Below are positions 6,430 to 48,163 of a DNA stretch of 64,000 nucleotides, in pieces. Every line of letters starts with the position of its first letter. Position 1 is the first letter of the stretch. The notes below the pieces were generated by a model. It was not told the DNA's origin. It ran no database searches and saw only the letters and a list, made by a program, of their open reading frames with translations. A program made the position numbers and the translations under genes. The DNA lies in assembly GCA_022925895.1 (NCBI GenBank), contig JAKSYS010000018.1:1-64000 (forward strand). The letters are read 5' to 3'. This stretch comes from Fragilaria crotonensis (taxonomy: Eukaryota; Bacillariophyta; Fragilariophyceae; Fragilariales; Fragilariaceae).

Positions 6430-8305
6430 TGATGTACTTTGTCCAACATTTCAAGATGCCTGTCGTACATTGGGTCTTCTAGATGATGATACTGAGTGGC
6501 ATCGAGCCATGCAGGAAGCCACACAGACACTCTCCCCAGCAAGGCTCAGAAGACTTTTGCAATCATCCTCTTCAACTGTGATGTCTCTGACCCAAGGTCA
6601 CTCTATGACTCTCACTGGGCTGCCCTGTCAGAAGACTATGCACACCGTCAACCCAGCCTTAGTGAACAACACCTGCAGGACCTCCTTGTGCGTAAACTTG
6701 ATGCCCTTCTGGGGATAATGCACAGCCGTTCTGTATTCGAATGGATACCATCCCTCCGCACACTTCTGGTTGAGGAGCATGGGAGTGCCATGGACAACAA
6801 TTCAGTCAACCATTTGTTAGAATTGCAGCTGTCATCATCCAACACTGATATTCAACAGCAGCTGGATCGCCTCCCTCTCCTGAATCTTGAACAGCGTGCT
6901 ATTTTTGATGCTGTACTTGCTTCTGTGAACAACAATGCTGGTACTGAAACTCAGAAAAATGTTTATTTTGTTGATGGACCTGCAGGCTCAGGTAAGACGG
7001 AGTTGTTCAGGATGATCCTTGCCAAGGTGCGCAGTGAAGGGAAGGTTGCCCTTGCAACTGCCATATCAGGCATTGCTGCCTCAAACTTTGCCCCTTTGGG
7101 CCGTACTCTGCACTATATATCCGGGCTTCCAATTCAATTATATGAAACATCCATGTGCAACCTATCAAAAGAGAAGGCAGAAGTTATGAAGGTTGCAAAG
7201 ATTTTGATCATTGATGAGATCACAATGCTTAAGGGTGTTGGTCTTGATGTTCTTTCACAGTCTCTTTGTGATTTACTTGAACGTAATGATGCTCCTTTTG
7301 GTGGCTTGGTTGTCGTCATGGGTGGTGACTTTCGTCAAGTGCTTCCCATACTACGCCATGCTGGAAGAGCTACCACTGTGCATTCAACTGTCCTACAATC
7401 CAAAGTCTGGCAAACATCATCTGTGAATGTAATGCAACTCTCTGAAAATATGCGATTGCGAATGGACTTACAGAACACGAATGCTAACCCAGAGTTCCAA
7501 GAAGTACTTTCCCATTTTGCATCTTTCCTGTTGAGGATCGGCGAGGATATGGAGCCTTCCCCAATAAATCTACCATCTTATATATTCCAGCCTCAGGATA
7601 CAAACGAACTGGTTGAGCATGTGTTTGATGATTTTTCTTCCAATGAACCAGCCTATTGGTCTGAACGTGCTATTCTATGTCCTAAAAACAAAGATGTTCA
7701 AAGAATCAATGATATGGTAACCTCAAGGCTACCTCATGATGAACATGTGTTTCTCAGTATTGACAACATCATATCTGAGGAACCTAATGATCCTGCACAT
7801 ACCCTCTATCCTCCTGAATTCCTGAACTCTTTGGAGCTATCTGGCCTTCCACCACATTGCCTCACTCTGAAAAAGGCATGTTGGTCATGCTGCTCGAAAC
7901 CTATCAAGCACACTCAGCAATGGCACCCGTCTCATTGTTCGCCGTATCTCACAGTCTGTCCTCCAGTGTTTGATTCCTACCACTGCAGAAATTGTGGACA
8001 TACCACGGATTGCTCTCCTATCACCTCAAGATGAGCTGCCATTTGTCTTCAAACGACGTCAGTTTCCAGTTCAACCAGCATATGCAATGACGATCAACAA
8101 GAGTCAAGGTCAAACATTGCGAAGAGTTGGCATTTTCTTGCCACAAGGTGTATTTGCACATGGCCAGCTTTACGTTGCTCTCTCAAGAGTTCGTAACCCA
8201 CATGATCTTTTCATATTTACTGATGGTCATCTTCTGCACAACATTGTTTATAAGGAGGTCCTGATATCAAAACTGTGCCCTCAGTATCATCAACAGGATT
8301 TGTAA
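6424..8305 (+). pseudogene. Helitron PIF1-like helicase portion
   Basis: The helicase part starts as VDDVLCPTFQDACRTLGLL in frame 2 and moves to frame 1 near 6540. Walker A is GPAGSGKT at 6976-6999, followed by KVALATAISGIAAS. Walker B is ILIIDEITML at about 7203-7232, then GGDFRQVLP and QLSENMRLR. A frame change between about 7850 and 7980 leads to the C-terminal motifs FPVQPAYAMTINKSQGQT and YVALSRVR, typical of PIF1/RecD helicases, ending at the stop at 8305. In an intact element this helicase would unwind DNA during rolling-circle transposition. Here it is a fragmentary passenger of the Helitron. Confidence 0.85.
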
Positions 8306-9730: not shown

Positions 9731-9898
9731 CAATACAATAGATTGCAATACTTCAAATGGACAATACAATATATTGCAATACTTTAATTGAGCAATACAA
9801 TATATTGCAATACTTCAGATCGACAATACAATATATTGCAATACTTTAATTGAGCAATACAATATATTGCAATACTTCAGAATGACAGTACAATATCC
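9731..9898. repeat. 31-bp tandem repeat, about 5.5 copies
   Basis: Units containing CAATACAATATATTGCAATA begin at 9731, 9762, 9793, 9824, 9855 and 9886, an exact 31-bp period. Each unit is an imperfect palindrome. Related degenerate units fill 10769-11043, so the array is subterminal at both ends of the hAT element and may hold transposase-binding sites. Confidence 0.9.
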
Positions 9899-10701: not shown

Positions 10702-11159
10702 AACCTGTACGGGCGCATCCATGTACAGTACATACTAGAGTAGTACATAGTACTTGTACCATGCCACCGTACAATATATTGTACTCGGAGTACAAGATAT
10801 TGCAATATTAAATATGACAATACAATATATTGCAATAATTCAAAACGACAATACAATATATTGCAATACTCCAGATGGACAATACAATATACTAGTATTG
10901 CAGTAGTTCAGAACAACAATACAATACTCGGAGTATATTGCAATACTTCAGAATGACAATACAATATATTGCAATGCTTTTACTACTACAATATATTGTA
11001 TTGGTAACAATACATAGCAATATATTATAATACAATATATTGTTGCGCAGCCCTGATTGGAATAGTGTGGTGTCGACAATAATCCGAGCAGCAATTTTTT
11101 AGGCTCGTAGTATCATACATGTAAGAGCATTCTTTATGGTTGAGGGGTACTACGTCAAA

Positions 11160-11756
11160 AATCTGACCTTAAACGTTTCTTTACCGACTTAACGGGGGGT
11201 CATCGTGTGCAAAATGCTGACGGTCGTCCAGGATGGCGCTACCTTGACGAGAACCGCCGCGTGTCTGCCTGGAGAATTTCCACTGGGAGGACACACAGGT
11301 CCCAGCAGAACCGAGTGATGTACAGGGCCATCCAGTGCCATGACGTGAAAGGTCCCATGTTGCCACCCGATTTCCTCATGGGTGACAACAAGCGGACAGT
11401 CCCTCTGGACTATCGTGCCGCCGCGTACCAACAGCTCCTTCTTCGTGCCAACAGTGCGAAGAAAGACGGCCGCCACTACGTTGATGGGTGTCACCACTAT
11501 GAGCTACCCGAGTCCTGTTGGATTGTTGATCCGGCAACGACTCACTTTGTTGACATCGTTGTTGGGATCGACACAACGGTGGGTGGGACACGTGATCGTA
11601 CGTGATCGTGAGTCCGTTGTGATGATACGCAACCTAACGAAGATCGATGTGAACGCTGACCACTGCGAATTGCTTGAGAGGCTCACGGGGCAGTGTTCTG
11701 AGTTTCGGAAGTCGGAAGTGAAGGGGACTGGCCTCAAGATAGGGTCTGCCATATAG
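11160..11756 (+). pseudogene. Broken partial copy of the 13.4-15.8 kb gene
   Basis: Frame 2 reads VSAWRIST, a GPMLPPDFL block, GRHYVDGCHHYELPESCWIVDP and HFVDIVVGID. These match VSAWRVS, GPRMPPDLI, GRHYAPGCLHLNIPDTCWIVDP and PFVDIIVDIE in the gene at 13438-15831. The frame breaks at 11590-11609, where the 10-mer ACGTGATCGT is repeated in tandem. The next frame continues RESVVMIRNL, matching KSVIMVRSI in the paralog, and stops at 11754-11756. The dioxygenase-like C-terminus is absent, so this is a remnant. Confidence 0.65.
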
Positions 11757-11861
11757 CTTTCTCTGATTTGCTTGTGACATTGCAACCTGCCTTCTGCCAT
11801 ATAGCTCAAGGTGAGGATTGTGACACTTTGTTGTGCTTTTGCTCGTTGATAGTTGTTGACA

Positions 11862-12474
11862 ATGGAGTCGGAAAGTACTGCCACTGGGGGTGGATCAAGA
11901 GTGACAAGGGCCGGACGATTGGCATTGCCGGCAGGACAAGGTCGCGGTGTTGGACTACAACGTCAGAATCGTCTTGCTGGCTGGTCGAGGTGGAGCAGCG
12001 CCAAGAGCTGCACGACTGCCAGCGGCAGCGAATCCTATTGCTCCCTCTGATACTGCAGGCAGAGCAGAGGCTCATGCACGAGGGAGGAGTCATGGTCTTG
12101 ATGCGATGCGTTCGCCCCGTGGTGAAAGAAGGCGGTGCAGGCATCCCGACGAGTCACCCAACACAAGAGCACGTACAGCGGCGGCACGAGCCGCAGGAGA
12201 AAATGAGAGGCATCGTTTTGAGTCGCCAAACACTAGGGCGCAAACAGCAGCGGGTAGAGGAGGTCGTTGTGCTGGTGGAATGTCCACTGGCCAATTGGCT
12301 TCTGCTTCGCAGCAGCGCGGGCCCATTACGGGCGCTAACCTTAACAGGACAACAGGACCAGCAGGAGTTGTGGGACGTGGAGGAAACGTTGAGTCGCCAA
12401 ACTCTAGAGCACGTGCGGAGCAAGTTTACGTCCTTTCGTCGTCTCGTCTTCCACGAGTTCTGGATTATCATTGA
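11862..12474 (+). pseudogene. Arg/Ala-rich hypothetical, probably frameshifted
   Basis: ATG 11862 opens a Gly/Arg-rich stretch (GGGSRVTRAGR). The reading moves near 11960 to the frame that gives LAGRGGAAPRAARLPAAANP and three ESPNTRARTAA-like repeats (around 12150, 12218 and 12390), ending at 12474. The low-complexity, basic composition gives no family match. It may be an N-terminal piece of the gene family found on both sides. Coding status is uncertain. Confidence 0.35.
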
Positions 12475-13232
12475 TCAAGTCATTACATGAATTGAAGTAC
12501 TCATAGGTGCCAAGGCTTCCAATGTGAGATGCATTCGTGGAAATTACCTCCTGGGGAGGGACAGATCGCTGCAATATACAGTCCAACAGCAACGTGCTTA
12601 ACCAAGCATTTGTTGACAGCGCAGAAGTGTCCTCACTACTGGGTGAGATCCATCCAGAAAAGCGAGGATCTCCCGGAAAGTGTGCCTCCTTCATGGTTTA
12701 TTTGTGGTGATCGCAACACAACTCCCAAGACAACGTCAAGAAACGAAGACGACCAACGACGGCTCCAGAATTCGATCTACGGTAGTAAAAGTGGTACTCC
12801 TACTCATCCGTATTATGTGTAAGTTAAACGCTTAAGTGTTTGGCATTTTCTTTCATTGCAAAACGTGCCTGCGTTTTGCTATCCAAAGAGAACAAAAATT
12901 ACTGCAGTTGTTGGAGGGATTGGTGTGTCATATATTATCATTCCAGTACACACTAATTTTCATGACTAGAGAGAAACATCAAAATTTTGTTATCCTTCGC
13001 GCGCTGGTACTCTAAGTAGTAGTTTATGATTCAAATCCAAGCGAAATTCAACGTAGAAGATGTACTGGGCGAAGAATTTTGCGCGGACTTTCACAGCCAA
13101 CACATTTCACTGCGGCGTCACTTCCCCACTTTAGATTACTTCTTCCTGTCTTCTTGTTGTAAACTCATTCCGGACAATCTTCGATTCAGCACATCTCAAG
13201 GTAACGTCCCGTCACGTCGTCACTACTAAGAG
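12475..13232. other. No clear gene
   Basis: A short open frame at 12529-12822 has no recognisable feature. The remainder is plain AT-rich DNA leading up to the hairpin array. Confidence 0.4.
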
Positions 13233-13423
13233 CGCATCATCATTTCCCTGCCATCTAGCCGGGAATGGTTGTTGCGTTGAGTAGAACGAGGTGTTCTTGA
13301 CGTAGGGTTACAGCCGTTGTCACCGAAACAAATTCCGTCTGCCATCTAGCCGACAGAGTTTGTTTCACTGTCAACAACTATACAGTACTCTCCCTGCCAT
13401 CTAGCCGGAAGTGTACAGTATTG
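13233..13423 (+). promoter_or_regulatory. Three hairpins sharing one 12-nt loop
   Basis: The 12-mer TGCCATCTAGCC occurs exactly at 13249-13260, 13340-13351 and 13395-13406. Each copy sits at the tip of a different inverted repeat. Hairpin 1 has arms 13233-13248 and 13261-13276 (12 of 16 positions pair). Hairpin 2 has arms 13316-13339 and 13352-13375 (19 Watson-Crick plus one G-U of 24). Hairpin 3 has arms 13378-13394 and 13407-13423 (13 of 17 pair). The stems are unrelated in sequence while the loop is invariant, as expected for a loop recognised by a protein or RNA. The array ends 14 nt before ATG 13438, so it is probably 5' leader or promoter. A short AGAAC/GTTCT inverted repeat lies between hairpins 1 and 2 (about 13283-13297). 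Confidence 0.75.
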
Positions 13424-13437
13424 GCAAACCACCAGCC

Positions 13438-15831
13438 ATGTCGGACTTGATACCGAATGAAGACAACGATACGTTGAAGGCGCGATGTCGGACGTCCATT
13501 TGTCGGTCAACTGTGCTCAACTTTGGAAAGGAAAATCCACGTGTAGTAGTGGTGGATCCTTCGAGAAAACGGTTAAGTAACAAGATGCCGAAGAAACGCA
13601 AGCAGAGGAATTACTTTCCTTCCAGTCCAAAGGTGTTGGCGCTTCTACTAAAGTGCTTCCCCATGAACGGCGGTAATTTCAGTGAAGGTGGGGATTTCGC
13701 GACTGCGTTTCGCGATGCGGTGAAGACAGGGACAATGAAGGGAGAGGTCGAGGTATGCGGGACACCCTTGCGATGGATTGCGTATGCGCTTGCTTGCTCG
13801 TTCGGTCTCAACAATGATTCCGATCGTAGTACTGCCATCACGCAATTGCGGTCTGTTGATGACATTTTCATGAAGCACGGATCATCATCGGAATTCCTCT
13901 CGGAATTCATCCTCATGGATGTCATCTGCAATCGGAAGATTACTCCGACAGCTGCCGCGGCGTTGGGTATAAGTGGCTCTGGTACCTTGGGTGACGACGA
14001 CGTCGTTCTGGCACCTGCGTCTGAAGAAGAAGACCTGGATGACATCAATGACTTCAAGTACAGGACTCTCCTTGCATTCCTCCCAGGGCGGGTGTATTTT
14101 ACGCCGTAAGGGACTGGCGCAGAAAGTCAGAAGGTGTTGATGGCTCCAGGATAGCCATGGACATAAGTTGGTTTCGTCTAAAGACGGGCATGGAGCACTC
14201 TCCACAGTTGGACTTGCAATTTGGGGAGGATGGGTACGTTAAAGATTTGCCAGCGTTACAAGTGCGGGGTCGCCACCATCTACTTTTGTGTCTGCGTGGA
14301 GAGTTTCGTACCATCCCGCCGCAATAAATTTTCCGCGTGAAGTGTTCACGTCAACACAGTGCGCGGATCACGAAGGCCCAAGGATGCCACCGGATCTTAT
14401 CTCTGGCCATGATGTGGGTGTGTGGCCAGTTCCTGACCGAGCTCAAGAATACAACCGCCGCCTTGTCAACTCTAATTCCACGAGGGTGGGTGGTCGTCAT
14501 TACGCTCCTGGATGCTTGCATCTTAACATCCCGGATACTTGCTGGATTGTTGATCCTGAGGAACGCCCATTCGTTGACATCATAGTTGACATTGAGCCGC
14601 CAGTGTCAAGCATGATTGGGAGGAAGTCCGTCATCATGGTCCGAAGCATTCTTGATGCGTCACTCAAGTCGCGGTATTGTCATCTAAAGCAACAATATGA
14701 CGTTGTCGGTTGCCTAGATGCAATTGTGGAACACAACTCGCTTCTGCGTCGGCATGTACCTGTTGGAACGGCGAGACAGAACAAAGGAGATGTTGGGACA
14801 ATGCATGCCATCGGGACACGAGTGCTCCTTGACGGATCGGGTACTGTTGGGTACGCCGCTAACTATAAGGTGCCGCAAACAGTACTGAAAAGGTTTATAG
14901 CGGCGTTCGCAACCGTCGGTATGTGCTGTTTTCCCGATGTGCTATCTGTTGTTCAACACATGGAAGCCGATTCATCTCTTCCACCCATTGCTCCGATGGG
15001 TGAGAATGACTGCAATGGAATCCGGGTGGGTTACACGATTGATATGAGCGTTGACCTAGGAAACGCGTCGCATTTCGACGTAAACGACGCGTCGCAGGGA
15101 TTTAGTGTGTGGACAGAGGAAATGCCCGGTTGTGCATCAAACTGGTACTTGATCTTCCCAATTTGCACGGAAGGAGGCCATGCGGAACGGAGTACAATGG
15201 CATTGCCGTCAAGCTTTATCATGGGACAGCCATAAGTTGGGACGGACGTGCTGTGAGACATTGCACGTCGGTGTCTCGACCGGATGGGCCAGGTACAGCA
15301 CCAGTACGCTCGGGTTGTTGGAATGGCAACAATCACTTATATGGCACCTTCACGGCAGCCAAGGAAAAAATTGTGGCAGCAGGTCGATGTCGTGCTTCTG
15401 GAAATAGTGCGGCAGCAGATGTTGTCACGAATGTGGCACATTCAAATGCAAGGCGCCCGAAGAGACTATTCCACGAGGTGAATGAGAAGGACGACGAAAT
15501 AAAGAAGATCACCACTGGATCCCATGACCGTAATGACAGCGATGACGAGGCAGAAACATACATTCGTCGTTGTATTCGGCATGGTTGTCGTTACAACGAT
15601 GACGTAGACGTTATGATGGGTACTGCGAGAGGGATGCAGGAGGAGGAAGGGACGGCACGTCAATTCCAGTCTGACCTGGAAATGACGAGTGACGAAGACT
15701 GTCCTAGAGTGCAGGCACGGAGGAGGCAGGCAATGCGTAATCGTTTGTTGGGTCTGGATTTGTACAGACCTGACGGCGATGAAGAATGCTGTTCAAAAGA
15801 TACTGATGACGAGGATGAAGAAGACGATTGA
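13438..15831 (+). pseudogene. Unfamiliar protein with 2OG-Fe(II) dioxygenase-like end; frameshifted
   Basis: ATG 13438 lies just after the hairpin array. Frame 1 to 14109 gives a basic N-terminus (KKRKQRNYF) and a helical region (GTPLRWIAYALACSFGLNN, FLSEFILMDVICNRK). Frame 0 continues RDWRRKSEGVDGSRIAMDI to about 14280. Frame 2 gives VSAWRVS, DTCWIVDP and RSILDASLKSRYCHLK, up to GNASHFDVNDASQGF and NWYLIFP. Frame 1 from about 15170 gives EYNGIAVKLYHGTAISWDGR and RHCTSV, then an acidic tail. HxD (HFD), a later His (RHC) and a nearby Arg in beta-rich context resemble the double-stranded beta-helix of 2OG oxygenases, including TET/JBP-like forms. That fold assignment is inference. All three frame changes are in the same direction, consistent with single-base losses. 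Confidence 0.55.
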
Positions 15832-16739
15832 TGTTGATGTTAATGATAACTAACTTGCAGGGCAACTGCTAAGTATAACGGTAGCAACGTGAGTATAAAG
15901 GAAAAGTAGTGGACACATTTGTAAGGCAATGTCATGTTGCCTTTCATGGACTTTGCTACCTCAGTAGGTTGGTCGTCGTACGAGTTGTTTGTGGTACTGT
16001 ACTGTGAGGCAGATCTTGTATGGGTATACTGTTGATGTCAGATTTGGTGGAGCCGTCGACCGTATAGATGAAGATGAAGTTGCTCTTTTGAAAGAAAAGA
16101 GCACAACAAAGAATTATGACCGCACTTAAACCATGATATTTGATAAACGAACGACACATGTGAAGTGCGTGATGAAGATGTTCGTTGTGTATGTATGACA
16201 TGGTGGAGCGATGAGTGTGGTCCATCTTGGATGAATGTTACGAGACGGTGTACCATGATGTCCGTGGAGGTCGAGCATGGCAGGCGACAAAAGCGTGATA
16301 TAGTAAAAAAGGGCAAAACAATGCGTGATATTGTAAATGTATCTTTTCAAAATGCGTGATATTGTAAAATACAATTGCAAATGTAGTATATAGTAAAATA
16401 TGAATTTGTGGATAGTAAGTCATTGTACTATATTGCAAAGTGGCAAAAAAATGCGTGATATTGTAATTTCCCCTTTAATTAAAGATTGAGCCCAGACGGA
16501 TAGACACTAGTACTTGTACCTGGTACGGTCTCTTTAGAATGGGAACACGCCATACACATATCCATACATACGTAGATATGCTAACGTTTCCAGTACTGAA
16601 CATATGTCTGCCAGTCCCGCACGGAATGCCATGGTCTTGACTTATTGCATTTTTGATTCGTGATCCAGAGGAGTGTTTGTCATATCTTTACCTTCGCATC
16701 TTGGACCTGCTTCACACCACAGTTGTCAAAACATTGTCG
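15832..16739. other. Intergenic with short AT-rich repeats
   Basis: No gene seen. The motif ATGCGTGATATTGTAA recurs at about 16321, 16351 and 16450, with related GTGATATAGTAAAA forms between 16296 and 16440. The last 200 bases should contain the promoter of the glycosyltransferase gene. Confidence 0.5.
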
Positions 16740-18119
16740 ATGCCGTCATCTTCATACCTTGCTGTGGTTGCGTTCGTGGCTTTTGTCGTGGCCCTCCTTT
16801 ACGTTGCGAATCTACGTCGGGCTACTGCAGCTGTGTTACGAGCGGATTTACCAAACGACGCTCTGTCAAAGATCCAGGCGGATGTACTCGGCGTTCCAGT
16901 GCAATTGGGCACTGGGGTTGTGCATACCGATGCCGGTGCCGGTGCCGGTGCCGATGCCGATGCCGATGCCGATGCCGATGCCGATGCCGATGCCGATGCC
17001 GATGCCGATGCCGACGCCGATGCCGATGCCGATGCCGATGCCGATGCCGATGCCGATGCAACAATGGCCGAAGAAGAAAGCAACCGAAGTGAACGAAGTA
17101 ACAAGATTATTGGAGATACAGTCAAACCCACAAATTCACTCTCGCATGACACCTTTCACGTGCACCTCATGCAGCCTAGTAATACAGAAGTTCTGAACAA
17201 AACCAAAATTGTTGGTGTCATCAGTGGTTCATACGCCAGTATTGCCATACGATGGTACAATCGCCTGGAAACACTGGGCTACAACAATCACTACATCATT
17301 TGCACTGACAACGAAACCTGCCATGAATTTCTGAAGTATGATAACAGTACCCGACACTACCGCACGGAAGCTAGCTACTACACGCTTCCCGAACCACCGG
17401 ACGATGCAGAAAGTCGAAATGAGAAGGAGCGAAATCGAATCTATGCCACGTTTGCACATCGATGGGTGTACGTATTGGAGCAGTTGAAACTCGGATATCA
17501 CGTTCTCCTGACGGACGTTGACAACATATTTACGTCATACTATAGCATGAACGAACTGGAAGACTCTGAATTCGATGTGTATCTGGCCCTCGAATTGAAG
17601 CACCCCATGGACGTTTTCGTCCACCAAGGATTTGTCTTTTGCGGAGGCATGGCATGGTTCCGTTCGTCGCCTCCCACCATTCGTTTCATCGAAGAAATGG
17701 TACACCGGTGCGGCGAGGCATGTGAAGACCAAGACCTACTGAATCAAATTGTGGCATATGACCTTGGCGTCCAATGGAATCGCACCGGAGAAGAGCACAC
17801 GCAAGTGACAATGGCCACGGAAGATACCAATGTGACAGAAGCTCATTTTGAACGGTTAGTCGGGCTGGTGATCAAGGGTTTCACAGGCTACAGTGAGACG
17901 ACTGGGCTCAAGATTAAGGTTTGGGATCGCGACTTTGCTTATCGTGGCAAGGTGGATCCATCAGTATGTCCACTAGGAAACTGGGTGTCCATGCCATTTA
18001 CTATAGCCCGCTTACGATCACGGGCAAGGGCTAGGAAAGAAAGGGCATTCAATGTGTGGGATAAAAACTGCCCAAATGAATACACGAATCGAACTCGTCG
18101 TATGACTCGAATAAGTTGA
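16740..18119 (+). CDS. Nucleotide-diphospho-sugar transferase (type II membrane)
   Basis: Start at ATG 16740; the longer open frame begins only with TTG. Residues about 5-25 are a hydrophobic anchor (AVVAFVAFVVALLYVA) after a short N-terminus, which suggests a type II Golgi membrane protein. A hexanucleotide microsatellite encodes an Ala-Asp run at about residues 65-105. The catalytic region starts at KIVGVISGSYASIAIRWYNR. It includes WVYVLEQLKLGYHVLLTDVDNIF with the metal-binding DxD (DVD), VHQGFVFCGGMAWFR, and EDQDLLNQIV. This is the pattern of the nucleotide-diphospho-sugar transferase family (PF03407-like, plant GT77 relatives). The sugar and acceptor are unknown. The 459-residue frame is intact. 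Confidence 0.85.
   Translation: MPSSSYLAVVAFVAFVVALLYVANLRRATAAVLRADLPNDALSKIQADVLGVPVQLGTGVVHTDAGAGAGADADADADADADADADADADADADADADADADADADATMAEEESNRSERSNKIIGDTVKPTNSLSHDTFHVHLMQPSNTEVLNKTKIVGVISGSYASIAIRWYNRLETLGYNNHYIICTDNETCHEFLKYDNSTRHYRTEASYYTLPEPPDDAESRNEKERNRIYATFAHRWVYVLEQLKLGYHVLLTDVDNIFTSYYSMNELEDSEFDVYLALELKHPMDVFVHQGFVFCGGMAWFRSSPPTIRFIEEMVHRCGEACEDQDLLNQIVAYDLGVQWNRTGEEHTQVTMATEDTNVTEAHFERLVGLVIKGFTGYSETTGLKIKVWDRDFAYRGKVDPSVCPLGNWVSMPFTIARLRSRARARKERAFNVWDKNCPNEYTNRTRRMTRIS
16926..17061 (+). repeat. GATGCC hexanucleotide microsatellite, coding
   Basis: About 20 GATGCC/GGTGCC units are translated as (Asp-Ala)n in the stem of the glycosyltransferase. Unit length is a multiple of three, so expansion keeps the frame. 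Confidence 0.95.
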
Positions 18120-21939: not shown

Positions 21940-22788
21940 ATGCAGGCAGCCCTCGACAGACACAACGCGCTTCGAGCTCACCATGGGGCTCCACCACTTG
22001 TGTGGAGCGACGATTGCGCAATGAAAGCACAGCAGGCGGCCAATTACTGTCAGAGCATAAGAGATTTGGTGCACAACAACCATTCCAATCAGGGCCAAAA
22101 CCTCCTCTACAGTTCCTCGAGTCGGGTCAACCCAGTGGATGCGACGCAGCTATGGTACGACGAGGTGGCCAGTTATGACTACAACAACCCTCGCTTCTCA
22201 ATGTCCACAGGACACTTCACACAGCTCGTGTGGAGGTCGACCACTCATGTGGGAATCGCTGTTTCATCCGACGGGAAGTATCTTGCAGCACACTATTCCC
22301 CATCCGGCAACGTTACGGGTCGATTCAGGGAGAATGTATTGCCACCGCAGCCCAGACGCGGGGCGACAGATACAATGCATGTGCCCACAAATCAAGACAT
22401 GGTGCTAATCAATCCTCAATCGGGAAAGGCTCTTGATGTTGCCTACAGTGGAACTGATAATGGTACCAACATTCATTTGTGGGAGTGCAACGGCAGTGGG
22501 GCGCAGATCTGGCGTTATACGCCGGAACAAGAACTTATCAATCCACAGTCGGGAAAGGCTCTTGATGTGTCCTATAGTGGAACTGATAATGGTACCAACA
22601 TTCATTTGTGGGAGCGCAATGGTGGTGGGGCTCAAAAGTGGGTTTTCATGACGGATGGCAGTATTGTGAATCCTCAGTCAGGAAAGGCTCTTGATGTGGC
22701 CTATAGTGGAACTGATAATGGTACCAACATTCATTTGTGGGAGCGCAATGATGGTGGGGCTCAAAAGTGGCAGTTTGTTGCGTCCTAA
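21940..22788 (+). CDS. CAP/SCP domain plus ricin-B-type lectin repeats (copy 1)
   Basis: ATG 21940 starts directly at the CAP domain: ALDRHNALRAHHGAPPLVWSDDCA, GHFTQLVWRSTTHVGIAVS and SGNVTGRFRENVLPP fill residues about 2-145. Three repeats of about 40 residues follow, each INPQSGKALDVxxSGTDNGTNIHLWE ending in a QxW motif (QIW, QKW, QKW), which make one ricin-B-like beta-trefoil carbohydrate-binding module. CAP proteins are normally secreted, yet no signal peptide precedes the domain. The base before ATG ends TTCAG, so an upstream signal-peptide exon with a 3' splice site is possible. The usual CAP Glu in GEN is Gln here (QGQN). GH3 copy 1 follows 553 bp downstream. Confidence 0.82.
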   Translation: MQAALDRHNALRAHHGAPPLVWSDDCAMKAQQAANYCQSIRDLVHNNHSNQGQNLLYSSSSRVNPVDATQLWYDEVASYDYNNPRFSMSTGHFTQLVWRSTTHVGIAVSSDGKYLAAHYSPSGNVTGRFRENVLPPQPRRGATDTMHVPTNQDMVLINPQSGKALDVAYSGTDNGTNIHLWECNGSGAQIWRYTPEQELINPQSGKALDVSYSGTDNGTNIHLWERNGGGAQKWVFMTDGSIVNPQSGKALDVAYSGTDNGTNIHLWERNDGGAQKWQFVAS

Positions 22789-31493: not shown

Positions 31494-32339
31494 ATGCAGG
31501 CAGCCCTCGACAGGCACAACGCGCTTCGAGCTCACCATGGGGCTCCACCACTTGCGTGGAGCGACGATTGCGCAAGGAATGCACAGAAAGCGGCCAATTA
31601 CTGTCAGAGCGTAGGACATTTGGAGCACAGCAACCATCCCAATCAGGGCCAAAACCTCTACAGTTCCTCGAATCGCGCCAACCCAGTCGATGCGACGCAG
31701 CGATGGTACAACGAGGTGGCCAGTTATGACTACAACAACCCTCGCTTCTCAATGTCCACAGGACACTTCACACAGCTCGTGTGGAAGTCGACCACTCATG
31801 TGGGAATTGCAGTTTCGCCAGACGGGAAGTATCTTGCAGCAAACTATTCCCCGTCCGGCAACGTTACGGGTCGATTCAGGGAGAATGTATTGCCACCGCA
31901 TTCCCGACGCGCGGCGTCAAATACAATGCATGTGCCCACAAATCAAGACATGGTGCTAATCAATCCTCAGTCGGGAAAGGCTCTTGATGTTGCCAACAGT
32001 GGAACTGATAATGGTACCAACATTCATTTGTGGGAGCGCAACGGTGGTGGGGCGCAGATGTGGCGTTATACGACGGACCAAGAACTTATCAATCCACAGT
32101 CGGGAAAGGCTCTTGATGTTTCCTCTAGTGGAACTGACAATGGTACAAACATCCATTTGTGGGAGCGCCATGGTGGTGGGAATCAAAAGTGGGTTTTCAT
32201 GGCGGATGGCAGTATTGTGAATCCTCAGTCAGGAAAGGCTCTTGATGTGGCCAACGGCGGAACCGATAATGGTACCAACATTCATTTGTGGGAGCGCAAT
32301 GGTAGTGGGGCCCAAAATTGGCAGTTTGTTGCATCCTAA
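31494..32339 (+). CDS. CAP/SCP domain plus ricin-B-type lectin repeats (copy 2)
   Basis: The frame runs from ATG 31494 to TAA 32339, 281 residues. The CAP domain is intact (HNALRAHHGAPPLAW, GHFTQLVWKSTTHVGIAVS) and three lectin repeats follow with INPQSGKALDV and QMW, QKW, QNW motifs. It differs from copy 3 by few residues and from copy 1 by more, so copies 2 and 3 separated more recently. The sequence immediately before ATG ends TTGAG, so a 3' splice site and a missing signal-peptide exon remain possible. Its GH3 partner lies beyond the retrotransposon at 42716. Confidence 0.82.
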   Translation: MQAALDRHNALRAHHGAPPLAWSDDCARNAQKAANYCQSVGHLEHSNHPNQGQNLYSSSNRANPVDATQRWYNEVASYDYNNPRFSMSTGHFTQLVWKSTTHVGIAVSPDGKYLAANYSPSGNVTGRFRENVLPPHSRRAASNTMHVPTNQDMVLINPQSGKALDVANSGTDNGTNIHLWERNGGGAQMWRYTTDQELINPQSGKALDVSSSGTDNGTNIHLWERHGGGNQKWVFMADGSIVNPQSGKALDVANGGTDNGTNIHLWERNGSGAQNWQFVAS

Positions 32340-47317: not shown

Positions 47318-48163
47318 ATGCAGGCAGCCCTCGACAGGCACAACGCGCTTCGAGCTCACCATGGGGCTCCACCACTTGCGTGGAGCGACGATTGCGCAAG
47401 GAATGCACAGAAAGCGGCCAATTACTGTCAGAGCGTAGGATATTTGGTGCACAGCAACCATCCCAATCAGGGCCAAAACCTCTGCAGTTCCTCGAATCGC
47501 GCAAACCCAGTCGATGCGACGCAGCGATGGTACAACGAGGTGGCCAGTTATGACTACAACAACCCTCGCTTCTCAATGTCCACAGGACACTTCACACAGC
47601 TCGTGTGGAAGTCGACCACTCATGTGGGAATTGCAGTTTCGTCAGACGGGAAGTATCTTGCAGCAAACTATTCCCCGTCCGGCAACGTTACGGGTCGATT
47701 CAGGGAGAATGTATTGCCACCGCATTCCCGACGCGTGGCGTCAAATACAATGCATGTGCCCACAAATCAAGACATGGTGCTAATCAATCCTCAGTCGGGA
47801 AAGGCTCTTGATGTTGCCAACAGTGGAACTGATAATGGTACCAACATTCATTTGTGGGAGCGCAACGGTGGTGGGGCGCAGATGTGGCGTTATACGACGG
47901 ACCAAGAACTTATCAATCCACAGTCGGGAAAGGCTCTTGATGTTTCCTCTAGTGGAACTGACAATGGTACAAACATTCATTTGTGGGAGCGCAATTGTAG
48001 TGGGGCTCAAAAGTGGGTTTTCATGACGGATGGCAGTATTGTGAATCCTCAGTCAGGAAAGGCTCTTGATGTGGCCAACGGCGGAACCGATAATGGTACC
48101 AACATTCATTTGTGGGAGCGCAATGGTAGTGGGGCCCAAAATTGGCAGTTTGTTGCGTCCTAA
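47318..48163 (+). CDS. CAP/SCP domain plus ricin-B-type lectin repeats (copy 3)
   Basis: The frame runs from ATG 47318 to TAA 48163, 281 residues, differing from copy 2 at only about a dozen positions. It has the same CAP core and three lectin repeats; repeat 2 has CSGAQKW where copy 2 has GGNQKW. Its upstream region from 46856 duplicates that of copy 2. It lies 609 bp before the only nearly complete GH3 gene, so this pair is the best candidate for a working module that binds and cleaves polysaccharide outside the cell. That joint role is inference from proximity. Confidence 0.82.
   Translation: MQAALDRHNALRAHHGAPPLAWSDDCARNAQKAANYCQSVGYLVHSNHPNQGQNLCSSSNRANPVDATQRWYNEVASYDYNNPRFSMSTGHFTQLVWKSTTHVGIAVSSDGKYLAANYSPSGNVTGRFRENVLPPHSRRVASNTMHVPTNQDMVLINPQSGKALDVANSGTDNGTNIHLWERNGGGAQMWRYTTDQELINPQSGKALDVSSSGTDNGTNIHLWERNCSGAQKWVFMTDGSIVNPQSGKALDVANGGTDNGTNIHLWERNGSGAQNWQFVAS

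Follow-up and report, generated by a model that had tools for sequence, protein, structure and literature searches.

Hairpin arrays with a conserved loop upstream of a predicted TET-like gene in Mutator-like transposons of the diatom Fragilaria crotonensis

A 64,000-nt stretch of the Fragilaria crotonensis genome (contig JAKSYS010000018.1, positions 1 to 64,000; hereafter the window) carries three consecutive hairpins with one and the same 12-nt loop. The array belongs to a Mutator-like transposon (MULE), present in the window as a broken copy. The gene following the array, open reading frame (ORF) 2, has a product whose predicted structure fits the TET/JBP 5-methylcytosine dioxygenases. Our favoured reading, to which we give about an even chance, is that the hairpins are RNA operators specific to the transposon, arrayed in the leader of the TET-like gene and read by a factor that the element encodes. 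The hairpins were placed as follows:

13233..13276, + strand: hairpin 1, with 16-nt arms and the loop TGCCATCTAGCC at 13249-13260
13316..13375, + strand: hairpin 2 (the third of four in fuller copies), with 24-nt arms and the loop at 13340-13351
13378..13423, + strand: hairpin 3, the last before the start codon, with 17-nt arms and the loop at 13395-13406

The word TGCCATCTAGCC occurred three times in the window, exactly and on the + strand, each copy at the tip of an inverted repeat, as the original prediction from the sequence had described. Its counts were exact on recount, both for the arms (16, 24 and 17 nt) and for the pairs (12, 19 plus one G-U, and 13), and the last arm indeed ended 14 nt upstream of the start codon (ATG at 13438). 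The stems had also been said to share no sequence. Here base pairing was kept and the loop was fixed, but the stems were partly alike: hairpins 1 and 3 had 9 of 12 innermost stem bases in common, hairpins 1 and 2 had 12 of 20 outer ones. Fuller copies of the element had a fourth hairpin, between the first and the second of the window, which is absent from the window copy.

The pairing was well above chance. In ungapped 16-nt arms, hairpins 1-3 had 12, 14 and 12 standard pairs, with a mean of 6.0 at random window places (n = 20,000); 0.33%, 0.005% and 0.33% of these places reached the three values. Shuffled sequences had been proposed as a test of the triple coincidence, and the joint pairing sum was reached by none of 20,000 arm shuffles. 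The RNA fold of the 221-nt stretch, proposed as a further check, gave a z-score of -4.0 on the + strand and -3.4 on the - strand. By energy alone, hairpins 1, 2 and 3 were equalled by 1.1%, 1.5% and 23% of random 56-mers, respectively.

A lack of other genomic copies would have spoken against the array. We found 57 exact copies of TGCCATCTAGCC in the genome, mostly grouped in twos or threes, versus 5 for the reversed pattern; genome-wide counts, here and below, are of loop words, not of structures. Hairpin arrays accounted for 55 of the 57 copies: 52 at 25 loci belonging to a single MULE group, and three in a PIF/Harbinger locus (L029). The other two, in L018 and L031, were single words without a hairpin.

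By pairwise DNA comparison, the MULE elements were ~7.1-7.5 kb long, with terminal inverted repeats (TIRs) of about 480-580 nt and the ends GGGGAAATTACAA. As target site duplications, which in MULEs measure 8-11 nt, direct repeats flanked 9 of 13 copies at 8-10 nt (6 of them at 9 nt) and one at 7 nt; L010 and L013, which have common flanks, represent one event in this count. No such repeat was found at three of the 13, among them L011, which is cut by the contig end. The transposase domain PF10551 was recognized in L010 and L015 (E 7.7e-08 and 4.4e-09), together with a SWIM domain (E 2.7e-06 and 9.3e-06). The elements encoded the MULE/SWIM transposase and a C48 (Ulp1) peptidase on one strand and ORF2 on the other, and the hairpins lay in the divergent intergenic stretch, adjoining ORF2. 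Spacing varied between the subfamilies, and the four-hairpin copies had the loops TGCCATCTAGCC, TGCCATTTAGCT or TGCCATCTAGCT. The elements resemble the MULE-Diatoms lineage (PMC6446971) in being diatom MULEs with a SWIM domain. They differ in the length of their TIRs and in having at least three ORFs, whereas the source's row for that lineage has 123-124 bp for the TIRs, or only amino acid sequences, and a single ORF. The window copy, from which the transposase region is missing, had these parts:

12418..16474, + strand: copy of the MULE, truncated on the left and without its left TIR
12416..12778, - strand: start of the divergent Ulp1/C48 peptidase ORF, cut short where the element breaks off on the left; the domain itself was found in relatives
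13438..15822, + strand: ORF2, predicted TET/JBP-like dioxygenase gene, interrupted; matching pieces at 13438-14100, 14228-15163 and 15148-15822
15984..16474, + strand: right MULE TIR, ending in ...ATTGTAATTTCCCC

The ORF2 product was recognized by its predicted fold alone, made from the open ORF of a relative. A Pfam search with 19 ORF2 members, at E up to 10, gave no TET/JBP model (best hit 0.05, unrelated), and the PDB sequence search gave only unrelated matches (E 0.032 and 0.44). A candidate HxD...H iron triad was present across the 19 aligned rows wherever the letter was present (H548 in 16/16, D550 in 15/15, H611 in 15/15); residues 546-554 had a model confidence (pLDDT) below 50. Past H611 the conserved basic residues were K645, K/R647 and R653, none of them clearly where the 2-oxoglutarate-binding arginine is expected. 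Two protein searches, both limited to scoring the 8000 candidates with most words in common, gave 24 relatives, four of them labelled Fragilaria crotonensis. No TET-like protein relative was found in viral contigs. DNA transposons carrying a TET/JBP-type dioxygenase have been described in fungi (PMC12730594). In the present case a diatom MULE, which also has an Ulp1-type ORF, is the carrier. In the text of that paper, the words diatom, Mutator, MULE and hairpin are absent, and MuDR appears twice, for VANDAL and SET genes.

Judged from the stem sequences, arm pairing is under constraint. In a set of 17 chosen hairpins, 16 of them distinct, the covariation score was 0.416 versus 0.253 when shuffled (reached by 0/500 shuffles) and at most 0.268 with slid partners, and pairing cells made up 65.6% versus 56.3%. 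The comparison with places outside arrays, like the strand test below, used 68 of the 72 distinct hairpins, those with long enough flanks. Forty of the 68 array hairpins paired above the random 99th percentile, and none of 14 loop-like words outside arrays did so. Several points weigh against such constraint. The count of pairs changed on both sides (14/16) was matched in 21 of 500 shuffles and that of further pair types in 446 of 500, while kinship among the hairpins, which are not independent, inflates the covariation counts. Template-switch repair of imperfect palindromes could also be the cause of the matching arms.

The arrays recurred in diverged relatives. Among 11 diverged ORF2 loci (41-57% protein identity) read upstream of the start, eight carried arrays with their own type of loop (TGCCATATAGCA/T, TGCCATACAGTG, TGCCATCCAGTG or another one), two had a single hairpin and one had none. 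C137 and C76 had three TGCCATATAGCA and one TGCCATTCAACA, C17 and C471 three TGCCATATAGCT, C109 (130.8 kb) two TGCCATACAGTG and one TGCCATACTGTG, and C529 two TGCCATACAGTG. At C341 there were two TGCCATCCAGTG within the stretch read, and at C637 two hairpins with a changed loop. From positions among the matches listed, arrays also lay upstream of ORF2 relatives at C43, C317, C405 and C526. Genome-wide there were 110 occurrences of TGCCATATAGCW (2 for the controls) and 202 of TGCCATMCAGTG (3 for the controls). An alignment of the CAGTG group had badly placed gaps and was disregarded. The loops were mostly uniform within an array and different between families, with the core TGCCAT kept in most families. 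Read as RNA, most of them form a hexaloop CAUNYA closed by GC/GY (CAUCUA, CAUAUA, CAUACA, CAUCCA and CAUUUA were seen, and CAGAAA in C637).

The largest arrays among the matches listed reached at least 18 copies, at C263 and C285. Runs of TGCCATCCAGTG counted at least 18 at C263 (L076, C263:54000-54270), at least 18 at C285 and at least 11 at C383, often spaced by ~66 and 84 nt, and the three loops read in L076 all fold as hairpins.

Some of these loci count against the favoured reading. C592 and C873 had one variant hairpin each, with the loop TGTCATACATCA, and C108 had no array in the 211 nt read. The families are fewer than the loci, because C137/C76, C17/C471 and C592/C873 are near-identical pairs. 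The long runs in C263, C285 and C383 may be plain tandem duplication.

Strand, orientation and position, read from the sequences together, favour a transcribed leader. In the seven whole elements of the window's group, the exact loops were confined to the array and all pointed in the sense of ORF2. At C137 and C317, which belong to one relative group, the divergent gene had a hairpin of its own, in its own sense, 34 nt before an ATG and with the same stem at both. Opposite-strand loops among the matches listed, at C3, C14, C76, C103, C594 and C230, suggest by their positions the same layout as at C137/C317. The one locus read among these six, C230, had two loops at least 61 nt before an ATG. 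The distance from the last loop to the ORF2 ATG was 15-31 nt in the window, L010, L054 and L049, and 84 nt in L050. In 38 collapsed stems, G.T opposites outnumbered A.C opposites 42 to 13. This evidence has its counterweights: the divergent peptidase gene of the seven whole elements had no such hairpin, and the G.T excess has p = 0.05 after correction for arm composition, which makes it a weak strand test. The original prediction had offered a 5'-leader binding array. That idea gained from the covariation, from the arrays before the same gene in relatives and from the sense hairpin at the divergent gene (two loci), while the transposon, the family-variable loop and the TET-like gene had escaped it.

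In the favoured reading of an RNA operator array, the leader would be transcribed, and the RNA hairpins would present the hexaloop, mostly CAUNYA, closed by GC/GY. A trans-acting protein would bind the loops, most likely one encoded by the element, either the TET-like protein or the Ulp1-like one. A partner of the element's own fits better because the loop differs between families with a diverged protein. Binding would set the translation or the stability of the TET-like mRNA, so that the demethylase of the element would be on briefly, and for the element only. The array would thus work like iron-responsive elements and other leader operators, which it resembles in its variable stem, its fixed loop and its place near the start codon. 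The iron-responsive element has a CAGUGN hexaloop and a stem with a bulged C. As a candidate it was rejected: the hexaloop here is mostly CAUNYA, not CAGUGN, and the Rfam scan of the window gave no match at gathering score. A small-RNA precursor, another function proposed for the array, is not favoured, because the loop is conserved and not the stem. The array may, as was also proposed, be a cruciform DNA site. Against a role as RNA, the loops could instead be double-stranded DNA sites.

This last possibility underlies the main rival, which we regard as doubtful: a DNA-level anti-silencing tag, in which an element protein would bind the motif as DNA and send the TET-like enzyme to the element's own promoter to take off methylation, the stems being an aid to cruciforms or by-products. 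In Arabidopsis, the VANDAL elements, which are MuDR/MULE elements (PMC12730594), use VANC proteins for sequence-specific anti-silencing through double-stranded DNA motifs and counter DNA methylation (PMC5735166, PMC10398659). As in the VANC target arrays, we found a short noncoding motif multiplied in a MULE carrier, evolving in concert and different between related families. The VANC6 motif was also found in an unrelated element (PMC5735166), much as our loop was in L029. That methylation is countered has been shown for VANDAL and is here a guess, and ORF2 looks TET-like by its predicted fold. The many tandem loop copies also agree with a DNA tag. However, three features would be superfluous for a double-stranded DNA site: the covarying stems, the gene-sense orientation at both genes of C137, and the confinement to the ORF2 leader in the seven whole elements. 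What sets the present motif apart is that each copy is the loop of a covarying hairpin, placed in sense orientation in a gene leader and adjoining a gene that looks TET-like; the word hairpin is absent from the main text of both papers.

We hold it unlikely that the hairpins are a nascent-RNA tag of self-identity. Leader hairpins would then recruit the element's own TET-like enzyme and have the transcribing copy demethylated, each family would have its own loop, and the Harbinger element would have copied the tag to hitch-hike. Just as unlikely, in our estimate, is a host reader, either an RNA-binding protein or a trans RNA forming a kissing loop, which would repress transposon mRNAs or be exploited by the transposon. 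Such a reader agrees with the loop common to MULE subfamilies and a Harbinger element, and with the core TGCCAT, but less well with a loop that differs between families with a diverged protein. That a trans RNA perfectly complementary to the 12 nt takes part is improbable, because across the assembly the exact word or its complement was confined to the 55 places in arrays and the two single sites. Least probable, and very unlikely, is a mutational artefact without function, made by tandem duplication of a quasi-palindromic unit and template-switch repair: tandem duplicates are obvious in C529, C341, C637 and C263, but orthologous hairpins keep imperfect stems while their loops stay fixed, the 14 loop words outside arrays show no excess of hairpins over chance, and in diverged families the arrays remain near the start of ORF2, with a hairpin before the divergent gene at C137 and C317.

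In L029, three hairpins with exactly the loop of the window preceded the ORF of a PIF/Harbinger transposase (PF13359, E 1.4e-22), the last loop 114 nt upstream of the first ATG. Similarity to the MULE hairpins was mostly confined to 36-51 nt, plus one weaker match of 108 nt. The module has either moved or arisen twice; a common reader is suggested. This is weakened by the Harbinger relatives L052, L053 and L066, which had no such loop at the guessed places; L052, seemingly inverted, is a poor test. The leader hairpins of L029 (4725-5146) stand within larger imperfect repeats of ~140-155 nt.

We found no description of this arrangement of hairpin array, MULE and TET-like gene in the open-access literature searched, and no open-access paper found brings together a MULE, a dioxygenase of TET-like type and structured leader motifs under concerted evolution. 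Should the loops serve as operators for a protein, their variants in this one genome would be natural test pairs for the co-evolution of a motif, RNA or DNA, with its reader. If they steer demethylation, they would show how a transposon can lift its own silencing but not that of its neighbours. At high pH, transposon genes of Fragilaria crotonensis are reportedly up (PMC9732472, with RNA reads in BioProject PRJNA866361), and expression data for testing the idea therefore exist.

Upstream of the array, the window holds what is, by sequence similarity, the remnant of another TET-like element, which is more diverged (11144-11806):

11144..11605, + strand: fragment of a second, more diverged TET-like ORF2, 56% to P0014 over 104 amino acids
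11747..11806, + strand: two TGCCATATAGCT loops (11747-11758 and 11795-11806), within a stretch that over 140 nt has 89% identity to C230 (L077)

In the fold of the window copy of this stretch, a hairpin tip lay under the second TGCCATATAGCT loop only.

The 16-nt hairpin pattern gave eight single matches in viral contigs, without arrays, which we took as chance. One of the eight, at 2493-2508 of L068 (IMGVR_UViG_2841371829_000002), is a strong hairpin (-30.2 kcal/mol) with the same 12-nt loop, probably also by chance.

Elsewhere in the window, a PIF1-type helicase ORF (PF05970, E 1.8e-52) was found at 6496-8305, continued in another frame; Helitrons encode a PIF1-type helicase. Tandem repeats of ~31 nt with CAATACAATATATTGCAATAC lay at 9731-9896 and 10791-10979. 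A 129-bp repeat formed three separate arrays, at 22408-22771, 31959-32309 and 47783-48146, whose consensus units were much alike. At 16927-17059, 22 copies of CCGATG encoded an Ala-Asp run within an ORF with a nucleotide-diphospho-sugar transferase domain.
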